A DNA stretch of 8,371 nucleotides from Chloroflexota bacterium (GTDB lineage: Bacteria; Chloroflexota; UBA5177; JANWHV01), in the NCBI GenBank assembly GCA_025450255.1, contig JANWHV010000137.1:1-8371 (forward strand). The letters run 5' to 3'. Below the pieces are notes generated by a model that had not been told where the DNA came from, searched no databases, and saw only the letters and a list, made by a program, of their open reading frames with translations. This document shows positions 1 through 8,371 of the stretch, piece after piece. Each line of letters begins with the position of its first letter. The first letter of the stretch is position 1. Made by a program: the position numbers and the translations under genes.

Positions 1-468
1 ATCTATAGCCGTGGCATCCACGGTGATCAGGTTATCGCCAACCACCGCTATAGCACTGGGCGGAACCTGGAAATGCGTTGCTGAGTGAAATAGGCCGGTG
101 CTTGGCGCCGCGACGTCATAATGGGTGATCGTGCCGTCGTTAGGATCGAAGTCGAGGCCATCTATCGTACCGGCGAGGTCTCCGGTATTCGTTACCACCT
201 TACTACCCTTGAACGCGCCCAGACTTACCGCGCACGCGATCTCGGAGCTACCCGCCGCGCTCGCGTCATCAACCATCACCGCGTCTTTTCCTATGCTGCG
301 AACATCGCCCCATGGCACGCTAGCGCCGCCACGGAACAGGCCGCCACGTAGCACGAAGCCGGCCAAACGGTGATTCGCGGTATCGATCAATAGATCGGCA
401 ATCTCGCCCAGTTTCTCCGCTTGGTTCACGTTAACTACCGCCCGGCTTTGCAATTGCGCGAGATCCAT
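1..468 (-). CDS. PRC-barrel domain protein, two barrels (partial, C-terminus off the left edge)
   Basis: The frame is open on the minus strand from an ATG at 468 to base 1, giving 156 codons with no stop, so the C-terminus lies outside the window. A good GGAG ribosome site sits 6 nt before the ATG. Residues ~9-70 (AVVNVNQAEKLGEIADLLID, then VPWGDVRSIGKDAVMV) form one PRC-barrel unit. Residues ~84-153 (FKGSKVVTNTGDLAGTIDGL, then VPPSAIAVVGDNLITV) form a second. Both show the pattern of a 'stay/mark, G-x-(L/I)-x-(E/G)-I-x-D-L' strand followed by a 'V-P-x-x-x-(I/V)' strand. PRC-barrels are small beta-barrels found in RNA-processing, photosynthetic reaction-centre and many uncharacterised soluble proteins. 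No catalytic function can be read from this one. Codon use is unlike the right-hand operon: 4 of 9 isoleucines are ATA, and CTA, GTA and AGT are frequent. The family call is fairly sure; the role is unknown. Confidence 0.8.
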   Translation of the reverse strand, partial: MDLAQLQSRAVVNVNQAEKLGEIADLLIDTANHRLAGFVLRGGLFRGGASVPWGDVRSIGKDAVMVDDASAAGSSEIACAVSLGAFKGSKVVTNTGDLAGTIDGLDFDPNDGTITHYDVAAPSTGLFHSATHFQVPPSAIAVVGDNLITVDATAID

Positions 469-666
469 GGCCCACTCCAGTCGTGCGAAGGTATGGGTCG
501 CGTCGCGACCCCCACATGCTTGAAGTATGCCACGTACTTACGTAATGCACGCCGCGCCGATCGGCACAATTCTCCACGCCATTGACGGCCTGGTACTATT
601 CCCGCTCATGGGGAAGCTTGGCGACGCTCCCGAGGCGCGAAGAGACCGCCGGTTGCCAGAGAAGTG
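469..666. promoter_or_regulatory. Intergenic control region upstream of the PRC-barrel gene
   Basis: This 198-bp gap lies between the VOC gene stop and the PRC gene start, both on the minus strand. It holds a run of short symmetric elements: 495-511 (GGGTCGCG-T-CGCGACCC, perfect), 515-529 (CATGCTT-G-AAGTATG, one mismatch), 538-545 (TTACGTAA) and 556-565 (GCCGATCGGC). The element nearest the gene ends 26 bp before the ATG. As RNA it could fold to a 6-bp stem with a 5-nt loop in the leader. I found no convincing -35/-10 pair and no clear U-tract terminator for the VOC gene. An independent promoter for the PRC gene is inferred from the symmetry only. Confidence 0.4.
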
Positions 667-1038
667 CTAGCCGCGAGCAGGCAACTGCTGCACGGACCAG
701 CGGTTGCCGTCCGGATCGCTGAAGAAGACGTACGAGCCCCAGGCGAAATCCTGGACCTCGCTGACCTCAACCCCCCGCTTGACGAGTTCCGCGCGCGCTG
801 CTTGTATATCCGCGACCACGAGCTGCAAGCCCTGGACAGAGCCCGGCGGCGTATCCACGAGCCCGGTCCCCAGGGCGATCGAGCAGGCCGACCCGGGCGG
901 GGTGAGCTGCACGAAGCGAAGCTCGTCGCTGACCCGGTGGTCATGGTCGGCGTTAAAGCCGGCCTTCTCGGTGTAAAAGGCCTTTGCGCGGTCCACGTCC
1001 GAGACGGGAATCGCCACCAACTCAAGCTTCCAATCCAT
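667..1038 (-). CDS. VOC family (glyoxalase/bleomycin-resistance/dioxygenase fold) protein
   Basis: A 123-residue protein of the usual size for a single-unit vicinal-oxygen-chelate protein. It has the characteristic start (MDWKLELVAIPVSDVDRAKAF, residues 1-21), a central IALGTG segment (54-59), the second beta-alpha unit GLQLVVADIQAARAELVKRG (70-89), and the closing FFSDPDGNRWSVQQ (105-118). The ATG at 1038 is preferred because AAGGAAGG lies 6 nt before it and the family begins here; a further 22 codons upstream are open but look non-coding. VOC proteins bind a metal with His/Glu/Gln side chains and act as lyases, isomerases, dioxygenases or drug binders. The usual C-terminal acidic ligand (…VQE) is Gln here and the mid-protein position is Q72, so classical glyoxalase I activity should not be assumed. 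It lies 69 bp downstream of the MFS exporter on the same strand and is possibly co-transcribed with it. Confidence 0.85.
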   Translation of the reverse strand: MDWKLELVAIPVSDVDRAKAFYTEKAGFNADHDHRVSDELRFVQLTPPGSACSIALGTGLVDTPPGSVQGLQLVVADIQAARAELVKRGVEVSEVQDFAWGSYVFFSDPDGNRWSVQQLPARG

Positions 1039-1107
1039 GATGCACCTTCCTTTCGTGCGCGATCGATACCAGTGTACTCGCCGGTTTCGTACCGCGCGCC
1101 GCACTTC

Positions 1108-2439
1108 CTATGCTCCGGCGGCGCTGGCCCGCTCGACCGGCTCACGCAAGGTGGTCAATCGCCGCATTTCCGGCCAATGCCAGGCGACGAGGAGCACCAC
1201 CAGCAACGTACCAACACCGCCGGCGGCCACCGCGGCAACCGGACCGAAAAGCTGGGCCGCGAGGCCCGACTCGAACCCGCCAAGCTGGTTCGAGGTACCG
1301 ATGAACAACGAGTTCAGGGCGCCTACTCGGCCGCGCATGTGGTCCGGGGTGCGGACGAGCACCAACGTACTGCGGATGACGACGCTGATATTGTCGCAGG
1401 CGCCGAGCACGAAGAGCATACAGAACGAGAGCGCGAACGACGTCGACAGTCCGAACACCACCGTCGACAGGCCAAATACGGCGACCGCCAGCAACAGCGC
1501 GCGCCCTGCCCTGGCGAACGGCGGCCGGTGCGCCAGGATCAATGCCATGCACACGGCGCCGAACGAGTCCGCCGCTTGCAGCCAGCCCAAACCGGCCGGG
1601 CCGACGTGCAAAATATCCCTGGCATACACCGGAAGCAACGCCGTGGCGCCGCCAAACAGGACGGCGAAAAGATCGAGCGTGATCGCCGCGAGCAGTACCT
1701 GCGTCTGGCGCAGAAATCGCAGGCCCTCCGCCAGCGACTCCAGCGCATTCGCGGTAACGACGCGCGCCTGTGGATTCCGCACCCTTGCCTGCAGCAGCAT
1801 GACCACATAGACGAGCGCGCCCAGGCCGGTAAGCGCGTAGATCCAGGCCGCGCCGTGCAAGATACCGAGCAGGAATCCTCCCGCCGCCGGTCCCATCACG
1901 GCGGATAGCTGCCAGGTACTGCTGCGCCACGTCGTGGCATTTTCGAACAATGGCGGCGAGATCACCTGGGCGATCAAAGCGGAGCCAGCCGGGTTGCCGA
2001 AGGCGACGGCGCCCCCAATCAACACCAGGCACCCATAGACCAGCGCCAACGAGCCATGCTCGGCGGAAACCGCCGCCAGCCCGAATGCGCCCAATGCCAT
2101 GACCATCTGCGAGACCACGACCACGCGCTTCCGGCTGAAGCGGTCCGCGATATGACCGGCCGGGAGGGACAGCAGGATAATCGGCAGAACCTGCGCCAGC
2201 CCGACCGCGCCCAGGGCCAGTGCCGAGTTCGTGCGGTTATACAACTCCCAGCCGAGCGCGACGGACAGCATCTGCTGTCCGAACGACGCCACGAAGGCCC
2301 CGATCATCAGCAAGCGGAAATCGCGGACCCGGAGCGCGCTATACGGATCACGCTTGAGGCTCGCCTCGGCATTGGGCGTGTCGTCCGCCAGATATCGCGG
2401 CCGTACAGGGCGGAGTACGGCCTTGCGCGGTCGCTTCAA
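1108..2439 (-). CDS. MFS transporter, EntS/MFS_3-like exporter
   Basis: A 443-residue protein with twelve hydrophobic segments in two six-helix halves, separated by a charged loop around residues 215-240. The loop between helices 2 and 3 carries the MFS motif A as GHIADRFSRKRV (95-106). The C-half contains DNISVVIRSTLVLVRTPDHMRGRVGALNS, typical of the EntS-like branch of proton-driven exporters (siderophores, macrolides and other small molecules). The substrate cannot be read from the sequence. The start chosen is a TTG at 2439, with GGAG 5 nt upstream; no ATG is available before the first helix. The N-terminal ~38 residues are basic and cytoplasmic. A perfect 16-bp palindrome lies about 97-112 bp upstream and may be an operator. 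The VOC gene follows 69 bp downstream, so an exporter plus small-molecule-modifying or binding pair is possible, but this is inference. Confidence 0.87.
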   Translation of the reverse strand: MKRPRKAVLRPVRPRYLADDTPNAEASLKRDPYSALRVRDFRLLMIGAFVASFGQQMLSVALGWELYNRTNSALALGAVGLAQVLPIILLSLPAGHIADRFSRKRVVVVSQMVMALGAFGLAAVSAEHGSLALVYGCLVLIGGAVAFGNPAGSALIAQVISPPLFENATTWRSSTWQLSAVMGPAAGGFLLGILHGAAWIYALTGLGALVYVVMLLQARVRNPQARVVTANALESLAEGLRFLRQTQVLLAAITLDLFAVLFGGATALLPVYARDILHVGPAGLGWLQAADSFGAVCMALILAHRPPFARAGRALLLAVAVFGLSTVVFGLSTSFALSFCMLFVLGACDNISVVIRSTLVLVRTPDHMRGRVGALNSLFIGTSNQLGGFESGLAAQLFGPVAAVAAGGVGTLLVVLLVAWHWPEMRRLTTLREPVERASAAGA

Positions 2440-2535
2440 GTCGTCTCCGTCTCCAGGGTAATCCGCGTGTCCTTCCGGCGGCGTGTGTCACGGCATTGTG
2501 TGGCAACACTGCACGCGGGCTGTTCACCGCAATGC

Positions 2536-2551
2536 GACGACGATCGTCGTC
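2536..2551. promoter_or_regulatory. Perfect 16-bp palindrome, candidate operator for the MFS gene
   Basis: GACGACGATCGTCGTC is identical on both strands, and the symmetry stops exactly at the flanking bases (C2535 and C2552). It lies about 100 bp upstream of the MFS TTG start. A symmetric site of this length upstream of a drug-exporter-type gene would suit a dimeric repressor of the TetR, MarR or similar type. No regulator gene is adjacent in this window, so the partner is unknown. Confidence 0.4.
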
Positions 2552-2706
2552 CACGTCCGGAAAGGCATCGTCAACTGGTAGCCATGGTACTGCATGCGCC
2601 GGGCTCGATGACTCGGCCACGCGCGAGCGCCGGCGATCCCTTCACGCCCGCCAGGCAGTTGCAAACTTCATGCACCGTCCGGCGGCAGTTGAGACGACAG
2701 CTCCGC

Positions 2707-2728
2707 CGGCCCGTGGCGCCGCGGGCCG
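2707..2728 (-). terminator. GC-rich hairpin after the small membrane gene, possible terminator
   Basis: CGGCCCG (2707-2713) pairs with CGGGCCG (2722-2728) across an 8-nt loop, 14 nt past the minus-strand stop codon at 2742. No T-tract follows on the minus strand, so it is not a textbook intrinsic terminator. It could be an mRNA 3'-end stabiliser, a weak or factor-assisted terminator, or a chance stem in GC-rich DNA. Confidence 0.25.
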
Positions 2729-2741
2729 CGCACACCGCGCC

Positions 2742-3053
2742 TCAGCCCAGCGAGGATGAGCGGAAGCGGTTGGAATCGGAAGCGGACATGCTGCCGGCGA
2801 GGCAGTCACGGGGCTGGTGAGATCCGGTCAGGGCGGCCATCGCGAATGGCCCCGCGGCCAATGAGGCCAGGAGGAGCGCGATCGACAGTAGATTGTGGGG
2901 GCTCATGCCCACGACCAGCGCGAGTAGACTGACGAACAAAAGCAGCCATGCCCCCGCCTGCCACTGGCAGATGATCGCGCGCTGGAGCGCGCCCCAGCGT
3001 TGAAGCATCCCCCTGCCCGTGTCGTCGCCGGCAATGATGTCGTCCATTGTCAT
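2742..3053 (-). CDS. Small two-helix membrane protein, function unknown
   Basis: I do not recognise a family. The 103-residue product has a charged N-terminus (MTMDDIIAGDDTGRG), an amphipathic stretch LQRWGALQRAIICQWQ (17-32), two adjoining hydrophobic helices at ~34-50 (AWLLLFVSLLALVVGM) and ~54-76 (NLLSIALLLASLAAGPFAMAAL), and a Ser-rich tail. The helices are joined by a short SPHN turn, which predicts a helical hairpin. The first ATG (3053) has AAGG only 4 nt upstream. The second ATG (3047, two codons later) has the same AAGG at 10 nt, so either may be used. The gene is divergent from the sigma-factor operon and shares its 183-bp upstream region, so it may be co-regulated with it. Coding status is supported by the clean membrane pattern and a possible ribosome site, not by homology. 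Confidence 0.6.
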   Translation of the reverse strand: MTMDDIIAGDDTGRGMLQRWGALQRAIICQWQAGAWLLLFVSLLALVVGMSPHNLLSIALLLASLAAGPFAMAALTGSHQPRDCLAGSMSASDSNRFRSSSLG

Positions 3054-3236
3054 CCCGCCTTGACTTTGTCGTGCCGCGATCACCAGCATAGCATCAGTGG
3101 TCAACGGAGCCTGCACGGACCACCACGTGAACCTTTTCCCTCGATCGGGCTACTCACTTGATGGAAGGGCCAAACCGATGTAGACATGGAGAACGCGGTG
3201 GTCGGGGAGTGCGCGGCGGTACGGGAGACCAACCGG
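3054..3236. promoter_or_regulatory. Divergent promoter region between the small membrane gene and the ECF operon
   Basis: This 183-bp region separates divergently read genes and should hold promoters for both. GTGGTC (3097-3102) and GACCAC (3118-3123) form an inverted pair 15 bp apart, and a further GTGGTC copy lies at 3198-3203. Next to this is an ECF-like -35 element (see 3128-3156). An alternative ATG for the sigma factor at 3186 also falls inside it. Confidence 0.45.
3128..3156 (+). promoter_or_regulatory. Candidate ECF-type, possibly autoregulated, promoter of the operon
   Basis: TGAACC at 3128-3133 followed by a pyrimidine run resembles the 'GAAC' -35 core recognised by many ECF sigma factors. 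The expected -10 window, 16-17 bp further on, contains CTACTCA (3150-3156), which is only a loose match. It lies ~80 bp before the preferred sigma start. ECF factors commonly drive their own operon, so the location is right, but the evidence is one short motif. Confidence 0.3.
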
Positions 3237-3797
3237 ATGGCTGAGAGACCGGATGCCGACGCGGCGCTCATCGCGCGCATCGGTGGTGGAGAGCGCGACG
3301 CACTCACCGAACTCTACGGGCTCTACCGCATCCCCCTTTTCCGCTATCTGCTGGCACTGAACCCTGACCATGGCCTGGCAGAGGAACTGCTTCAGGATAC
3401 GCTTGTCGCCGTGTGGAGAAGCGCGCGAACGTTCAGGGGAGAGTCATCGGTGCGCACCTGGCTCTTCGGCATCGCGCGCCGGCAGGCGTATAACACACTC
3501 CGCCGGCGCGGAATCCCCGTGACCGACTGCATGGAGTTGGACGATATGCGCGCGAGCGAGCCGGAGCCGGAGGCATTGGTGCTGACAAGATTGGCCTACG
3601 ACAACCTGTTGGCCGCCATGGAGCGATTGGCGCCGCCACAGCGCGAGGTGCTCGTACTGACTTTTGTCGACGAGCTCTCGTATCAAGAGTCCGCGGCGGT
3701 CATGGGCGTGCCTGTTGGCACGGTGAAGAGCCGCCTGAGCAACGCCAGACGTGCCCTGCGCTCGCTCTTGCATGAGGGGGAGAGGAGAGAACCATGA
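3237..3797 (+). CDS. ECF-type RNA polymerase sigma factor
   Basis: A 186-residue sigma-70 family protein with only regions 2 and 4, the ECF layout. Region 2 spans ~25-92 and includes AEELLQDTLVAVWRSA (48-63) and the -10-binding segment FRGESSVRTWLFGIARRQA (67-84). Region 4 spans ~122-178 with LAPPQREVLVLTFVDELSYQ and the helix-turn-helix ESAAVMGVPVGTVKSRLSNA (151-170), which reads the -35 element. The ATG at 3237 is preferred because GGGAG lies 9 nt upstream. The alternative ATG at 3186 has no ribosome site and would add 17 residues of non-conserved sequence. The stop codon overlaps the anti-sigma start (ATGA), coupling their production. It should direct RNA polymerase to promoters controlled by its anti-sigma partner, probably including its own. 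Confidence 0.93.
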   Translation: MAERPDADAALIARIGGGERDALTELYGLYRIPLFRYLLALNPDHGLAEELLQDTLVAVWRSARTFRGESSVRTWLFGIARRQAYNTLRRRGIPVTDCMELDDMRASEPEPEALVLTRLAYDNLLAAMERLAPPQREVLVLTFVDELSYQESAAVMGVPVGTVKSRLSNARRALRSLLHEGERREP

Positions 3798-4699
3798 TGC
3801 CACATACGCCACGCGACGCCGGCCACGTCGCCGACCTCTTGCCGGCGTACGTCAACCGCACACTCGATCGTGAAACCATGGAGCAGGTAGACCGGCATCT
3901 CGGCTCATGCGCTGCCTGCCGAACTGATCTGGATGACTGGCGGCTGGTTGCGCGGCTTACGCTGCAAGTGACCTCGCCGGCGATCCTTCCCGCCCCCTTC
4001 GTGATGGCGCGGATCTGGGCGGCCGTTGAGGCGGATAGCAGTGCGGGGGCGCGCCCTTCCATACGCGCCTCCGCCGGTCACGCCCTCCAGGTGCTGATCG
4101 GCCAGTTGCCGCTGATTCAGCGGTATCTGTGGCCGGCCTCCGCCCTGGTGATGGCACTGGGCTTCGTGATCGCGGCTGTGGAACGGCCGGGCACATCGAG
4201 CCTGGTTATCCAGCTGGTGGCCCCAATCGTCGCCGCTATCGGGATGACCCTGATCTATGGACCGGAGATTGACCCTTCGCTTGAGGTGGCCCTGGCCACG
4301 CCGACATCGCCGCGGCTCATACTGCTCGCCCGCCTCACCCTTGTCTCCGGCTATGACCTGCTGCTTACGCTGGTGGCCACGGCCGGGCTGGTGCCCCTGG
4401 GCCGCGGAGGATTCGCTTCAACCCTGAGCTTCGAGTGGCTCGGCCCCATGCTCTTCCTCTCAGCGTTGGCCCTGATCCTCTCGCTACGCCTTGGGCCGAC
4501 CGTCGCCGCGTCCATGGCGCTGATCCTCTGGATGGTCCGTGTCTTTGTCGCCTCGGGCGCCGGCCTGGGAGTGCTGAACGGCCAGGAGACAAGTCTGATC
4601 GTCCAGGCGTGGTCCACCAACGCGGTCACCCTGGCGGGCGCCGCCATCCTCCCCGCGCTGGCCGTCGGGTCAATCACACGACAGGAGCGGCTGGCATGA
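3794..4699 (+). CDS. Zinc-binding anti-sigma factor (zf-HC2) fused to a six-helix ABC-2 permease-like domain
   Basis: A 301-residue protein. The N-terminal cytoplasmic part has the zinc anti-sigma signature H35-x3-C39-x2-C42, with H11 as the likely fourth ligand (GHVADLLPAYVNRTLD … HLGSCAACR). Such domains clamp the ECF sigma factor until a signal releases it. Instead of the usual single anchor helix, six hydrophobic segments follow at about 111-129, 136-155, 183-201, 215-233, 237-259 and 276-295. The loop after helix 2 (DPSLEVALATPTSPRLILLARL, 160-181) looks like the ABC-2 permease segment 'E-L-L-L-A-T-P-V-S-R…L-x-x-K'. It matches both downstream permeases in spacing. AGGAG lies 6 nt before the ATG at 3794, with a second ATG directly after. 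It overlaps the sigma stop and the next gene's start by 4 nt each. The anti-sigma call is firm; the permease origin of the membrane half is inference. Confidence 0.9.
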   Translation: MMPHTPRDAGHVADLLPAYVNRTLDRETMEQVDRHLGSCAACRTDLDDWRLVARLTLQVTSPAILPAPFVMARIWAAVEADSSAGARPSIRASAGHALQVLIGQLPLIQRYLWPASALVMALGFVIAAVERPGTSSLVIQLVAPIVAAIGMTLIYGPEIDPSLEVALATPTSPRLILLARLTLVSGYDLLLTLVATAGLVPLGRGGFASTLSFEWLGPMLFLSALALILSLRLGPTVAASMALILWMVRVFVASGAGLGVLNGQETSLIVQAWSTNAVTLAGAAILPALAVGSITRQERLA

Positions 4700-5382
4700 A
4701 CGTCGCGGCGTGGACCCTAGAGTATCGCCTCCTCGGCCGGCGCACCTGCGGCTTGACTGCGCTCGCCGCCGCCGTCATCGCCGTCGCCGCGGTACTGAGC
4801 TCGGCGGTGAGTGCCGAGGACAACGCGACCACGGTCCTTACCGGCGGTCTGGAGCTCGGTCTCCCGATCGTGTCCGGCGCGCTCACCGCCGCCCTGATCG
4901 GAGACGACCCCGCCCGCGAGTTGCAGCTCACCTTCCCGACCCCGTACCGGCGGACCGTCCTGCGCCGCGTGATCCTGGCCACGTCGTGGCCGCTGCTCAC
5001 CGCCGCCGCCGCCGCGGCGATACTGATCACCATCGGCCGCTGGATCAGCCCAGGCGGCGCAATAGGCGGACAGCTCGCCTGGATCGCCCCCCTTGCCTGG
5101 ACCACCATGGTCTGCTGCTTCCTCACGGTGGCGATGCGCGCCTACGTTGTGGCTGTGACACTCGTGGCCACGCTGGCGGCGGCGGAGATGGTGCTGGGCG
5201 CGGTCTTCAGGCAGAATGGCTGGCTGCACCCCGTGTACTTGCTGGCCACGACCGATACACAGGCACACGCCTACTGGTGGTCGAACCGGCTCGCGCTGCT
5301 CGGCACAGCCGTCGTGGCCGCCATCCTCAGCCGGATCCTGCTCGGCAGGCCCGAGCGGCTGCTCATGGAGGATGATCGATGA
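4696..5382 (+). CDS. ABC-2 type permease subunit, first of two
   Basis: A 228-residue integral membrane protein with six hydrophobic segments, about 19-37, 50-68, 92-114, 127-147, 149-171 and 197-216. The cytoplasmic loop between helices 2 and 3, DDPARELQLTFPTPYRRTVL (70-89), is the E-L-x-L-x-x-P segment typical of ABC-2 exporters, where a coupling helix meets the ATPase. The ATG at 4696 overlaps the anti-sigma stop (ATGA), has AGGAG 8 nt upstream, and fits the family N-terminus; a longer frame reaching 4435 is only open read-through inside the previous gene. The protein ends in LLMEDDR, overlapping the next permease by 4 nt. It presumably forms a heteromeric channel with the next gene, powered by the ATPase. 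The substrate is unknown. The call rests on topology, loop motif and operon partners. Confidence 0.8.
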   Translation: MNVAAWTLEYRLLGRRTCGLTALAAAVIAVAAVLSSAVSAEDNATTVLTGGLELGLPIVSGALTAALIGDDPARELQLTFPTPYRRTVLRRVILATSWPLLTAAAAAAILITIGRWISPGGAIGGQLAWIAPLAWTTMVCCFLTVAMRAYVVAVTLVATLAAAEMVLGAVFRQNGWLHPVYLLATTDTQAHAYWWSNRLALLGTAVVAAILSRILLGRPERLLMEDDR

Positions 5383-6179
5383 CCGCCGTTTGGCACCCCT
5401 TTGTCGCGGTGATGCGCAACGAATTCCGCATGCAATGGCGGCGGCGGGCGATGTGGCTCGTGATGATCGCCGCGAGCGGCGTCTTACCCCTACTCGCCTG
5501 GAATACCCTCAACCAGCGGTTCGAGCAAGACACAGTGGCGGGGGCCGTGGCCGATTGGGCGAGTTACCTCAACCACACCGGTCCCTTCGGCTGCGCCATG
5601 GTGCTGGCCAACCGCCTCCCGCGTGACCGGCGGCTCCAGGTCGACGAACTGTTGGACAGCTTCCCCGCCGGCCTCGGGACGCGCCTGTGGGGCAAGGCGC
5701 TGGGCGCCGTCGCGGCAAGCATCATCCCCTTCCTGCTCATCGCCCTGGCGGGCGTCGTCTACATCGCGGCGCATCTCCACGCGGCACGCGCCATCCCGAT
5801 TGGCGTGGCCGCCATCCTCACCATCACTCTGCCGGCGCTGCTGTTCATCTCCGCCCTGTGCATCCTCCTCTCGGCAGTGATCTGGACGCCCGCGGTCGGA
5901 TTCGTCTGTGCGTTCGTGTGGAGCTGGGTGCAGCTGGATCCCACCCAGAATCCCGCGCCTGGCAACAGCCTATTTTCGCCGTATGGCGACTATGCCATCG
6001 TCGGACTGTTCGGCTCACACCGCGGCGCGGCAGGCACGCCGGGGCAGGTCAACTTCGGTCCGCTCTCGCCGGCAGTGTCGGTCACGACAGGGCTGCTCAG
6101 CGTGCTGCTGATCGTGGCGGTCGCCGCTGTCCTCCAGGGCGCCGTGCCGTCCATTGCCCGCCGCCGGCAACGCCGATGA
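5379..6179 (+). CDS. ABC-2 type permease subunit, second of two
   Basis: A 266-residue membrane protein starting at an ATG overlapping the previous stop (ATGA). It opens with the amphipathic segment HPFVAVMRNEFRMQWRRRAMW (6-26), a common ABC-2 entry helix ('…r.E.r…rr…'). Hydrophobic segments follow at ~25-43, 60-79, 108-131, 142-166, 167-186 and 235-255. The helix 2-3 loop LQVDELLDSFPAGLGTRLWG (86-105), followed by K106, is the family's 'EL-x-x-x-P…R…GK' segment. A longer extracytoplasmic-looking stretch, ~187-234 with many Pro/Gly (DPTQNPAPGNSLFSPYGDYA), precedes the last helix and could be a substrate or signal contact. The tail is strongly basic (ARRRQRR), consistent with a cytoplasmic end. 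It probably pairs with the preceding permease. Confidence 0.85.
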   Translation: MTAVWHPFVAVMRNEFRMQWRRRAMWLVMIAASGVLPLLAWNTLNQRFEQDTVAGAVADWASYLNHTGPFGCAMVLANRLPRDRRLQVDELLDSFPAGLGTRLWGKALGAVAASIIPFLLIALAGVVYIAAHLHAARAIPIGVAAILTITLPALLFISALCILLSAVIWTPAVGFVCAFVWSWVQLDPTQNPAPGNSLFSPYGDYAIVGLFGSHRGAAGTPGQVNFGPLSPAVSVTTGLLSVLLIVAVAAVLQGAVPSIARRRQRR

Positions 6180-6210
6180 CGCGACACGCCACAGCACAGG
6201 AGAGTACAGC

Positions 6211-7101
6211 ATGAACATCGAGATTCGTGACCTGGAGAAGATCTACCCCGGCGGCGTGCATGCCCTGCGCGGCGTCACCCTCGACATCGAGCGTGGCATG
6301 TTTGGCCTCCTCGGCCCCAATGGCGCGGGGAAGACCACGCTCATGCGCATCCTCGCCGGCATCCTGCGGCCCAGCGGCGGCACGGTACGCGCCGGCGCCT
6401 GGAACATGGCGACCGAGCAGGATCGGATAGCGGTCAAGCGCGTCCTCGGCTACCTGCCCCAGGAACTCGGCCTCTACCCAGACCTCCGCGCCCGCGAGTT
6501 CCTCGACTACGTGGCAGTCCTCAAGGGGCTCGACGACAAGACCATCCGGCGTCAACGCGTCGCGGAGCTGTTGGAAACCGTGGGACTTGCCGGCGCGGCG
6601 GGGCGCACAATCAAGACCCTATCTGGCGGCATGAAACGGCGGCTGGGCATCGCCCAGGCGCTCCTCAATCACCCGCGACTGCTGATCGTCGACGAGCCGA
6701 CGGCCGGCCTCGATCCCGAGGAGCGCATCCATTTCCGCAATCTGCTCTCCGATCTCGCCGGCGACAGCACAGTGGTGCTCTCCACCCACATCGTGGAGGA
6801 TATCGCCCAGACTGCCCTGAGAGTAGCGGTGATGATGGAGGGCCAGGTCATTTTCCAGGGTACGACGCTCGATGTCGTGGAGCGCGCACGCGGCCATGTC
6901 TGGACCGTTACGGCCACGGATGGCAAGCCCCAGGGGGATGTGAGCGTGGTCTCGTCGCTCAATGTGGGCACGGCCGTGCAGTATCGTGTGGTTGGGCAGC
7001 CTGAGCACACCGCGCAGGCAACAGCCGCCCAGCCAAGTCTGGAAGATAGTTATGTCTGGTTGATGCGGGAACATCGCCGCGCCGCCGCCCTGTCGCACTG
7101 A
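6211..7101 (+). CDS. ABC transporter ATP-binding protein
   Basis: A 296-residue nucleotide-binding subunit with all motifs intact: Walker A GPNGAGKTT (35-43), Q-loop glutamine Q84 in GYLPQELGLYP, signature LSGGM (137-141), Walker B LLIVDEP (157-163) with catalytic E162, D-loop GLDPEE, and switch histidine H193 in STHIVED. It hydrolyses ATP to drive the ABC-2 permeases. A C-terminal extension of ~85 residues contains a small beta-rich segment and ends in PSLEDSYVWLMRE, seen in export-type ATPases of this branch. The ATG at 6211 is chosen over an upstream in-frame ATG at 6154 because AGGAG sits 8 nt before it and MNIEIRDLEKIYPGG is the family start. There is a 31-bp gap after the permease, the only non-overlapping junction in the operon. 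The stop overlaps the next start by 1 nt. Confidence 0.96.
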   Translation: MNIEIRDLEKIYPGGVHALRGVTLDIERGMFGLLGPNGAGKTTLMRILAGILRPSGGTVRAGAWNMATEQDRIAVKRVLGYLPQELGLYPDLRAREFLDYVAVLKGLDDKTIRRQRVAELLETVGLAGAAGRTIKTLSGGMKRRLGIAQALLNHPRLLIVDEPTAGLDPEERIHFRNLLSDLAGDSTVVLSTHIVEDIAQTALRVAVMMEGQVIFQGTTLDVVERARGHVWTVTATDGKPQGDVSVVSSLNVGTAVQYRVVGQPEHTAQATAAQPSLEDSYVWLMREHRRAAALSH

Positions 7102-8147
7102 TGAGCTTTGCACGGCTTTGGCTGCGCTTTGCCCCGGCGCTCCGATCGCCGCGCGTGCTTGGACCAACGCAGGCCGGCGCCGGCCTGCTGGCCGCGCTGC
7201 TGGCCTATGCCGGCGTCGGGCCGGTCCTGCGCCGCACCGCCCATCTTCAGGCGACGTCGCTGCTGCTGCTCGGCGTCCTGATGGTCGGCTACGAGGCGGT
7301 GCGCACCATGCAGTGGATCCTGCTGCTGTGTGGCATCGACCCGCCCCCTCCAGGGCGGGCAGCGGCGATGGCCTATCTCGGCGGTGAACTTGTCAAGGGC
7401 GTCCCCGCCGGCCAGTACGCGCAGACCCTCCTCTTGCGGCGGGCGAGCGGCACTCCGTTCACCACCTCCATCGCCGCGATGTGGCTTCTCTTGTGGATCG
7501 AGGCCACGGTATGCCTGCTGGCCCTGGGCCTGCTGGGATCCATCCCCTGGCCGTGGCTACGCCCGTTGGCGTGGGGGCTGCTGGCCGGCATTGGCACGGT
7601 GGGTTGGGCGGTCCGGCAAGGCAGCCGGCGGCGCCGTCGCGTGCCGGAGACACGCCTACCGCACCGGCGTGCAACGTTCCGGCAGCGGGGCGCGGAGCTG
7701 CTCACCGTGGTCGGGAACCTGTTGCGGCCGCGCAGCCTCGGCCCGGCGGCGGTTTGCGCGGTCATCTATGTGGTATTGGCCGGCGTCATTCTGTGGGCCA
7801 TCGCTCATGCGCTCGGCGTGTCGGGCATTGGGCCGGCGCGGAGCATCGCCATCTACGCGTTCGCCCTGGCGGCCAACCTGCTCGTCCTCGTGCCGTTTGA
7901 CCTTGGTCTGATCGAGACGGCAGGGACCGCGGCGCTGGTGGCCTGTGGGGTTCCCAGTGATGCGGCGGTCGCCACTATGCTACTCCATCGCGTCGTGTGC
8001 GGGCTGCTGACGGCGGCCATAACGGTGACAGGGCTGATCGTGCTGCGGCGCCAGGTAGGCGCGGCGTGGCGCGGGCACGCACCGGGCGCGCAGGGCGCGC
8101 CCGGCGATCTGCCCGGTTCCTCATCCGGGCATCGCGGGTGCGCGTGA
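7101..8147 (+). CDS. Lysylphosphatidylglycerol synthase transmembrane-family (flippase-like) protein
   Basis: A 348-residue polytopic membrane protein. Two stretches match the LPG_synthase_TM/UPF0104 family: AYLGGELVKGVPAGQYAQTL (91-110, the 'G-x-x-x-x-x-x-P-x-x-x-G' region), and VPFDLGLIETAGTAALVACG (264-283) followed by VPSDAAVATMLLHRVV. The latter is the 'P-x-x-x-G-x-x-E-x-x … G-V-x-x-x-x-A-x-x-x-x-L-x-x-R' region. In MprF this membrane part flips aminoacylated phosphatidylglycerol. Here no C-terminal aminoacyl-transferase domain exists, as in many stand-alone family members that handle lipids or glycolipids. A basic loop (GSRRRRRVPETRLPHRRATF, 174-193) splits the helices, and a ~30-residue Gly/Ala/Pro-rich tail is non-conserved. 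The start overlaps the ATPase stop (TGATG) and has no ribosome site, so translation should depend on re-initiation from the upstream gene. The substrate is unknown. Confidence 0.82.
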   Translation: MSFARLWLRFAPALRSPRVLGPTQAGAGLLAALLAYAGVGPVLRRTAHLQATSLLLLGVLMVGYEAVRTMQWILLLCGIDPPPPGRAAAMAYLGGELVKGVPAGQYAQTLLLRRASGTPFTTSIAAMWLLLWIEATVCLLALGLLGSIPWPWLRPLAWGLLAGIGTVGWAVRQGSRRRRRVPETRLPHRRATFRQRGAELLTVVGNLLRPRSLGPAAVCAVIYVVLAGVILWAIAHALGVSGIGPARSIAIYAFALAANLLVLVPFDLGLIETAGTAALVACGVPSDAAVATMLLHRVVCGLLTAAITVTGLIVLRRQVGAAWRGHAPGAQGAPGDLPGSSSGHRGCA

Positions 8148-8307
8148 TCCGGCGCGAAAGCCCCGTACCTGACCCGATTGGCGGAATGCGGGGCGCGGGC
8201 TGCCGGCCTGCTCATTCCCAGCCGGCCTGCCTCGTGTTGGGCAGTGCGGCGGAACGCGAAGCGCCTACCGCGCCGCTTGAGCCGGGCTGGTGGCACGACG
8301 GCAAATA
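8148..8307. other. Non-coding spacer between the operon end and the CRISPR repeat, with a direct repeat
   Basis: No gene is supported here. GCCGGCCTGC occurs twice, at 8202-8211 and 8221-8230, separated by 9 bp. Because GCCGGC is self-complementary, the two copies can also pair as a 6-bp stem with a 13-nt loop. A second weak stem, GCCCCG/CGGGGC, spans 8160-8194. Neither is followed by a T-tract, so an operon terminator is possible but not shown. Confidence 0.4.
8202..8230. repeat. 10-bp direct repeat, two copies 9 bp apart
   Basis: GCCGGCCTGC is present exactly twice (8202-8211 and 8221-8230), 19 bp from copy start to copy start. It lies about 55 bp past the operon's last stop and 78 bp before the CRISPR repeat. 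It could be a protein-binding pair, part of a terminator stem, or a small duplication. Confidence 0.45.
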
Positions 8308-8371
8308 GTTTCAATCCTCACCCGGCCGCCTGACCGGGTGCAACCGCGTGCGGATCTGGAAGTAGCCGGCC
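8308..8371 (-). CRISPR. Leader-distal end of a CRISPR array: one 37-bp repeat plus a partial spacer
   Basis: Positions 8308-8344 begin GTTTCAATCC and end GGGTGCAAC. The interior has a 7-bp inverted repeat, CACCCGG (8319-8325) with CCGGGTG (8334-8340), around an 8-nt loop. Read on the minus strand the element starts GTTGC and ends GGATTGAAAC, the classic 3' handle of type I and III repeats, so crRNA is probably transcribed on the minus strand. Bases 8345-8371 (27 nt) have no symmetry and would be the start of a spacer cut off by the window edge. The sequence left of 8308 does not contain another copy at spacer distance, so this is the outermost repeat. With minus-strand transcription it is the leader-distal, oldest end. 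Only one copy is visible, so array status is inferred from sequence style. Confidence 0.75.

Follow-up and report, generated by a model that had tools for sequence, protein, structure and literature searches.

A zinc anti-sigma factor joined to an ABC-2-type membrane module in a predicted exporter operon of a Chloroflexota bacterium

Introduction

Among class I zinc anti-sigma factors of extracytoplasmic function (ECF) sigma factors, ChrR, RslA, RsiW and RsrA have no or one membrane helix. RsrA senses thiol stress and lets its sigma factor go on oxidation, and regulated proteolysis is common for membrane anti-sigma factors such as RsiW and RseA; to our knowledge, the question of how anti-sigma factors sense their signals is open for many ECF groups. 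In Bacillus subtilis, the sigY-yxlCDEFG operon unites an ECF sigma gene, its regulators and genes of an ATP-binding cassette (ABC) exporter, the regulators being separate small proteins. Here we analyze an 8,371-nucleotide stretch of DNA from a Chloroflexota bacterium (GenBank assembly GCA_025450255.1, contig JANWHV010000137.1, positions 1 to 8,371; hereafter the window), in which an ECF sigma gene is followed by a gene for an anti-sigma factor whose membrane part is of the ABC-2 exporter type, and by genes of an ABC transporter.

Neighboring ground has been described in the literature. Some ECF36 proteins are reported to have three to four helices together with DUF2275, and ABC transporters are reported in the neighborhood of ECF257, which lacks an anti-sigma factor (PMC8999054). 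In the MalFGK2-MalT system of Escherichia coli, the idle maltose importer holds MalT through MalK and transport frees it (PMC10427625). We found no description of an ABC-2 module that bears an anti-sigma head in the portion of the open-access literature that was searched, which does not extend to the main ECF classification.

Results

An anti-sigma head joined to an ABC-2-type module

The window carries a tight operon on the plus strand, with genes in the order ECF sigma factor, anti-sigma factor, permease 1, permease 2, ATPase and LPG_synthase_TM protein, the first three junctions being ATGA gene overlaps (at 3794, 4696 and 5379). Our computations show that in the product of the second gene a zinc anti-sigma head, lying in the cytosol, precedes an ABC-2-type membrane module. 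The features concerned are as follows.

3186 to 3797, plus strand: ECF sigma factor, 203 residues (Pfam Sigma70_r2 6.5e-15, Sigma70_r4_2 4.1e-17); the start codon is uncertain, the Pfam match running from residue 43 onward
3794 to 4699, plus strand: anti-sigma factor, 301 residues, with a membrane module of ABC-2 type (zf-HC2 6.1e-9; fold and profile matches; 162 relatives at E<=0.001)
3827 to 3922, plus strand: zf-HC2 zinc-finger portion of the head of the anti-sigma factor, H35-x3-C39-x2-C42 (Pfam match and residues)
4061 to 4696, plus strand: ABC-2-type module of the anti-sigma factor, residues 90-301 (AlphaFold2 model; VIA-align rows 1-21)
4283 to 4333, plus strand: coupling-loop motif E164-x5-P170-x9-R180 of the anti-sigma factor (motif scan)
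4696 to 5382, plus strand: permease 1, 228 residues, ABC-2 type by fold, motif at 4918-4968 (structure model, VIA-align)
5379 to 6179, plus strand: permease 2, 266 residues, ABC-2 type, motif at 5646-5696 (family Pfam matches)
6211 to 7101, plus strand: ABC ATPase, 296 residues (Pfam ABC_tran 2e-31; Walker A, LSGG signature, Walker B, STH of the H-loop)

The zinc residues H35, C39 and C42 named in a first-pass annotation of this DNA, which was made from the letters alone, are all present, and the zf-HC2 match (36.3 bits) lies well above the Pfam cut-off of 22.2. With an H-x3-C-x2-C-bearing zf-HC2 domain and a gene that overlaps the ECF sigma gene (ATGA, 3794), the protein has the hallmarks of a class I zinc anti-sigma factor. 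A sequence search of the PDB matched the head as the sole part of the protein and related it to heads solved with sigma factors; the match to RsrA was below significance (E 0.49). The protein search, in which only the candidates that shared the most words with the query were scored, found the 162 relatives given above, with a best identity of 75% among the candidates scored. We aligned the window protein with 111 of 120 listed relatives, omitting nine short or partial ones, and all 112 rows match zf-HC2. From these sequence relationships the head is expected to bind and inhibit the adjoining sigma factor.

Pfam named nothing in the window protein beyond the head, and gave no ABC2 match. Among the 112 aligned rows, 31 match ABC2_membrane_2 (best 2e-5) and 16 match ABC2_membrane_3, both at E<=1. 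Profile-profile comparison matched the module to the permease-1 family (98.1%, E 7.4e-14) and, with hhalign, to a larger permease-1 set (98.7%, E 4.3e-16, 205 columns), against which none of 20 column-shuffled and three reversed controls did better than E 0.037. The same kind of comparison gave no match between the module and permease 2 (E 0.09), so that the tie of the module to permease 2 runs via permease 1, the profiles of the two permeases matching one another at 75.6% and E 2.4e-5 (no match with smaller sets, E 0.074).

The fold points the same way. The AlphaFold2 model of the anti-sigma factor (mean predicted local distance difference test, pLDDT, 83.6; predicted template modeling score, pTM, 0.67) has a helix at 90-104, six long helices, and short elements at 161-168, 256-259 and 263-273. 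This is the type V layout, with an interfacial helix before transmembrane helix (TM) 1, six membrane helices and short helices between TM5 and TM6; helix 161-168, between TM2 and TM3, takes the place of the coupling helix, and the loop to which it belongs carries the conserved E164 and R180. The N-terminus of the module is placed inside because the anti-sigma head sits there. Foldseek alone found nothing better than E 0.18 for this model in the PDB, and VIA-align returned ABC-2/type V proteins in all of its top 21 rows. The shared ancestry with ABC-2 permeases that the first-pass annotation had proposed is thus supported by the profile match to permease 1, by ABC2_membrane matches in some relatives and by the fold; an unrelated fold, named beforehand as the outcome that would speak against it, was not seen. 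We regard it as practically certain that the module is homologous to permease 1 and has the predicted fold of an ABC-2 (type V) exporter membrane subunit. It may also assemble with the ATPase, whose gene lies in the operon, and contribute to transport.

For permease 1 itself the model is better still (pLDDT 89.0, pTM 0.87) and each of the 50 VIA-align rows listed is a type V/ABC-2 exporter; Pfam found no ABC-2 match in 20 members of its family. Permease 2 of the window matches ABC2_membrane_3 at E 0.015, below the Pfam cut-off, and among 20 members of its family 16 match ABC2_membrane_3 and nine ABC2_membrane_2 at E<=1 (best 7.8e-15, to ABC2_membrane_2); on these matches the permease 2 family is assigned to ABC-2.

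A shared coupling-loop motif and the conservation of the loop

The pattern E-x5-P-x9-[R/K] occurs once in each of the three membrane proteins, at the positions first noted: E164/P170/R180 in the anti-sigma factor (EVALATPTSPRLILLAR), E75/P81/R91 in permease 1 (ELQLTFPTPYRRTVLRR) and E90/P96/K106 in permease 2 (ELLDSFPAGLGTRLWGK). In 20,000 shuffles of the same composition it arose by chance in 3.1%, 1.8% and 1.3% of trials, respectively, and in all three proteins together in 1 of 20,000. Across the gathered loci, which are not all independent, the motif is present in 59 of 77 anti-sigma-type, 33 of 45 permease-1 and 40 of 55 permease-2 stretches, compared with 9 of 110 other open reading frames (ORFs) with at least four hydrophobic segments. 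It was not found in the MFS and LPG_synthase_TM proteins of the window. Four later Actinomycetota loci (L119, L120, L122 and L135, among L116-L135) have modules without it. Six helices had also been ascribed to each of the three proteins. This count stands for the anti-sigma factor (six by hydropathy and in the model) and for permease 1 in its model (five by hydropathy); for permease 2, hydropathy gives five.

In the 112-row alignment C39, C42, W49, D160, R180, W215 and P218 are invariant, and H35, E164 and P170 are kept at 90% or more. The zinc ligands C39, C42 and H35 are the top single columns, and the loop 156-180 is the most conserved region (mean 0.62, against 0.41 for the head at 12-59 and 0.17-0.47 for other regions). 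We also aligned 53 modules bearing several kinds of head (53 of 57 stretches, leaving aside the near copies L063, L072 and L089 and L095, a duplicate of L008; the later Actinomycetota loci L116-L135 stand outside this alignment). E164, R180 and W215 are invariant in all 53, and the motif proline is kept in 40. Such selection on the cytosolic loop that meets the ATPase in exporters speaks more strongly than any other finding for a module that still engages an ATPase, and contact between the two appears likely.

Distribution and gene neighborhoods

Our first scan of genome contigs returned 11 loci, 10 of them titled Chloroflexota or groups within it and one Actinomycetota. At least 22 of 400 genomes from the phylum of G005 (locus L005, Chloroflexi) match the 112-row alignment at E<=1e-20, a lower bound since five candidates at most were scored per genome. 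With at most eight candidates scored, 22 of 396 genomes from the phylum of G011 (L011, Actinomycetota) match the membrane module alone at E<=1e-10. Viral contigs yielded three pattern matches and no relative. A tree built from 73 modules and 44 permease-1 domains separates modules from permease-1 domains by a branch with 100/100 support; the row nearest to both the module and permease 1 of the window is L001, from a Chloroflexi metagenome contig (55% identity).

We read the neighborhoods of 75 loci with the module, the window included and near copies from related genomes among them. The survey of such fusions that the first-pass annotation had called for shows the module recurring by ABC transporter genes in both Chloroflexota and Actinomycetota. 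In 70 of the 75, the module gene directly follows an ECF sigma gene; among the five exceptions, L049 and L087 do have a sigma gene, L127 and L129 have two modules with the sigma gene beside the other one, and in L135 the module starts 591 bases from the contig start. An ABC ATPase gene is within range, again, in 70 of 75. Three loci without one (L003, L004 and L134) end at the contig edge, and two (L051 and L088) do not. In these last two, the module and both permeases lie beside the sigma gene and no ATPase gene was found though the contig continues. Other operons cut by a contig edge are L011, L049, L121 and L125.

Both permease 1 and permease 2 were labeled in 40 loci, neither in 26, and permease 2 without permease 1 in nine (L011, L061, L071, L072, L075, L079, L089, L120 and L122), labels that rest on score thresholds which a diverged permease 1 could escape. 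The near copies L071, L072 and L075 have one permease-2 gene with the ATPase gene upstream, and no other nearby ORF of 150 residues or more with hydrophobic segments was found in L071 and L075. Permease-2 scores are weak in L120 and L122 (45 and 62 bits). L061 was ruled out as a two-subunit case by two further membrane genes, one of them an ABC2_membrane_4 protein (1.3e-16). A divergent class (L084, L086, L090, L091 and L093) runs sigma gene, module, one membrane gene, ATPase, most with a further membrane gene; the middle gene encodes an ABC2_membrane_3 protein in both cases run (L086, 1.2e-7; L093, 1.7e-12). Seven loci from the Actinomycetota search (L119, L123, L124, L126, L130, L131 and L133) have sigma gene, module, ATPase and a long membrane protein; Pfam named none of the three such long proteins run at its cut-off. 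The module had been described as a third permease module of its operon. That is so in the window; some relatives show no permease 1, and there the anti-sigma factor could be the second membrane subunit of the exporter.

Outside the 75 loci, a single 629-residue frame in L053 (7148-9034, minus strand) combines zinc head, module and permease 2; this is one case in a metagenome-assembled genome and could be due to the loss of a stop codon or to faulty assembly. The permease pair is doubled in L117 (P1-P2-P1-P2) and in L116, where the second permease 1 is in two short frames, each locus having one ATPase gene. The ATPase gene of L066 (11170-12071, plus strand) is apparently split into two frames.

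Variety of heads

The same module is found with heads of several kinds. Among the 75 loci, 35 have a zinc head, one has the zinc residues alone and 39 have neither. Pfam identified HEAT repeats as the head in L060, L065 and L072 (all three proteins run), and other non-zinc heads are, by reading, a short stretch; since ORFs were taken from the first possible start codon, their lengths and those of the heads may be overestimates. By reading alone, HEAT-repeat heads were also noted in L062-L064, L066, L068, L071 and L074-L077, with the same module beside a sigma gene. A HEAT-repeat head is possibly a new kind of sigma-holding head. In the module tree, some forks of which are weakly supported, the zinc-headed L048, L052 and L061 fall among rows without a zinc head, so that loss or exchange of the head has probably occurred on more than one occasion.

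A promoter-like site upstream of the sigma gene

GAAC-type sites are a form of ECF promoter, and a site resembling them precedes the operon.

3128 to 3156, plus strand: TGAACC-N16-CTACTCA, a promoter-like site of ECF type that ends 29 bases upstream of the annotated start codon of the sigma gene

It is the sole match to this pattern in the window. Among 75 regions upstream of sigma genes, which are not the same set as the 75 module loci, 23 hold the pattern: 19 of the 33 that adjoin zinc heads and 4 of the remaining 42. This compares with a mean of 0.06 and a maximum of 2 in 500 shuffles, a test that is not independent because the pattern was shaped after viewing the same regions; their opposite strand gave 1. 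Eight whole genomes hold 12 copies of the strict pattern and 6 of a backward control. Seven of the 12 directly precede the operon sigma gene (G001, G003, G010, G126, G361, G473 and G603), and in G003, G361, G473 and G603 that site is the sole strict copy; G592 lacks the strict form, its own site ending in CTACTTA. Given the 6 copies of the backward control, single strict copies elsewhere are at chance level, and the strict pattern therefore cannot delimit a regulon. With such a site before the sigma gene in the window and in relatives, the sigma factor probably drives, and thereby autoregulates, its own operon. In L092 (6911-8799, plus strand), which like L053 falls outside the 75 loci, a sigma gene with the same promoter pattern accompanies a zinc-head protein (419-residue frame) without the ABC-2 module.

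Remaining genes of the window

7101 to 8147, plus strand: LPG_synthase_TM (flippase-like) protein (Pfam; its start overlaps the ATPase stop)

No further match to this protein was listed by phmmer at E<=1e-5 for the subset of loci compared, and its gene may therefore have been added to the operon locally. On the opposite strand, a second transporter adjoins the operon, a major facilitator protein (MFS_3/MFS_1, 1108-2439, minus strand), followed by a Glyoxalase/VOC-family protein (667-1104, minus strand) and a PRC-barrel protein (1-468, minus strand). Rfam gave no match at gathering scores in the window.

Discussion

We propose that the operon encodes a self-contained exporter with a built-in switch, in which the state of the pump holds or frees the sigma factor. 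The module would sit in or against an exporter built from the two permeases and the ATPase, with E164-R180 as its contact to the latter. In the resting pump the head would hold the ECF sigma factor; substrate load or the ATP-driven cycle would move the coupling and interfacial helices beside the head and so free it, and the sigma factor would then transcribe its own operon from TGAACC-N16-CTACTCA, giving more pump and more anti-sigma factor and closing the loop. The conserved coupling loop and the anatomy of the operon make such a switch plausible. Three operons weigh against it, in that L051, L053 and L088 carry the module and no ATPase gene was found nearby, and on their account we lowered our confidence in the full switch slightly, from an even chance to just below that.

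More tentatively, the anti-sigma factor may be a working half of the exporter. Where permease 1 is missing, the module would complete the pump; the idle pump would repress its own operon and transport would turn transcription on, and in Chloroflexota and Actinomycetota the zinc, HEAT-repeat and short heads would together make up a class of modular sigma switches embedded in pumps. Operons that lack permease 1 favor an exporter half, as does the L053 fusion, and the operons with three membrane subunits, together with the three that have no nearby ATPase gene, disfavor it.

Those same three operons also speak for another view, in which the module is a retired ABC-2 permease that works apart from the pump and ATPase, a stand-alone receptor whose old pocket binds the export substrate and passes the signal to the head, the sigma factor then inducing the pump. 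Three membrane subunits to one ATPase gene in the window would suit such a receptor, as would the place of the modules on one side of the 100/100 branch, apart from permease 1, which argues for a dedicated class. However, conservation peaks in the cytosolic coupling loop and not in the membrane helices, and both the L053 fusion and the operons lacking permease 1 better suit a pump subunit. We therefore consider a stand-alone receptor unlikely.

It is improbable that the module is an anchor only, with the zinc head sensing cytosolic thiol stress in the manner of RsrA and freeing the sigma factor once oxidized. The H-x3-C-x2-C residues are indeed kept in zinc-headed relatives and are the most conserved columns, but the 39 loci with neither zinc-head match nor residues have the same module beside a sigma gene, the match to RsrA is below significance, and a mere anchor has no need of a conserved coupling loop. 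Release by regulated proteolysis upon envelope stress, as with RsiW or RseA, is a common route among membrane anti-sigma factors but a very improbable one here, since the modeled protein spans the membrane with six helices and offers a site-1 protease no outer domain of notable size.

If the proposed pump-state switch is true, a single protein would let the pump sense its own work and set its own expression, and ECF systems would gain a flux-sensing mode like that of MalK and MalT. The putative sensing body of this anti-sigma factor can be named, as a subunit of the ABC-2 exporter type.

Compared with known systems, the window protein shares with ChrR, RslA, RsiW and RsrA the zf-HC2 head with H-x3-C-x2-C and a gene adjoining that of an ECF sigma factor, and differs from them in that its body is an ABC-2 module. 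With ABC-2/type V subunits such as NosY, PmtD and the ABCG family it has in common the fold, the helix order, the coupling-loop motif and an ABC operon; unlike them, it bears an N-terminal anti-sigma head, and its role in transport is a possible one. The sigY-yxlCDEFG operon likewise brings together an ECF sigma factor, regulators and ABC exporter genes, but there the regulators are separate. The nearest working model is MalFGK2-MalT, which the proposed switch resembles in outline, with no homology claimed: there the transporter is an importer, the ATPase subunit does the binding and MalT is the protein held, whereas here the transporter would be an exporter, the membrane subunit would bind and a sigma factor would be held.

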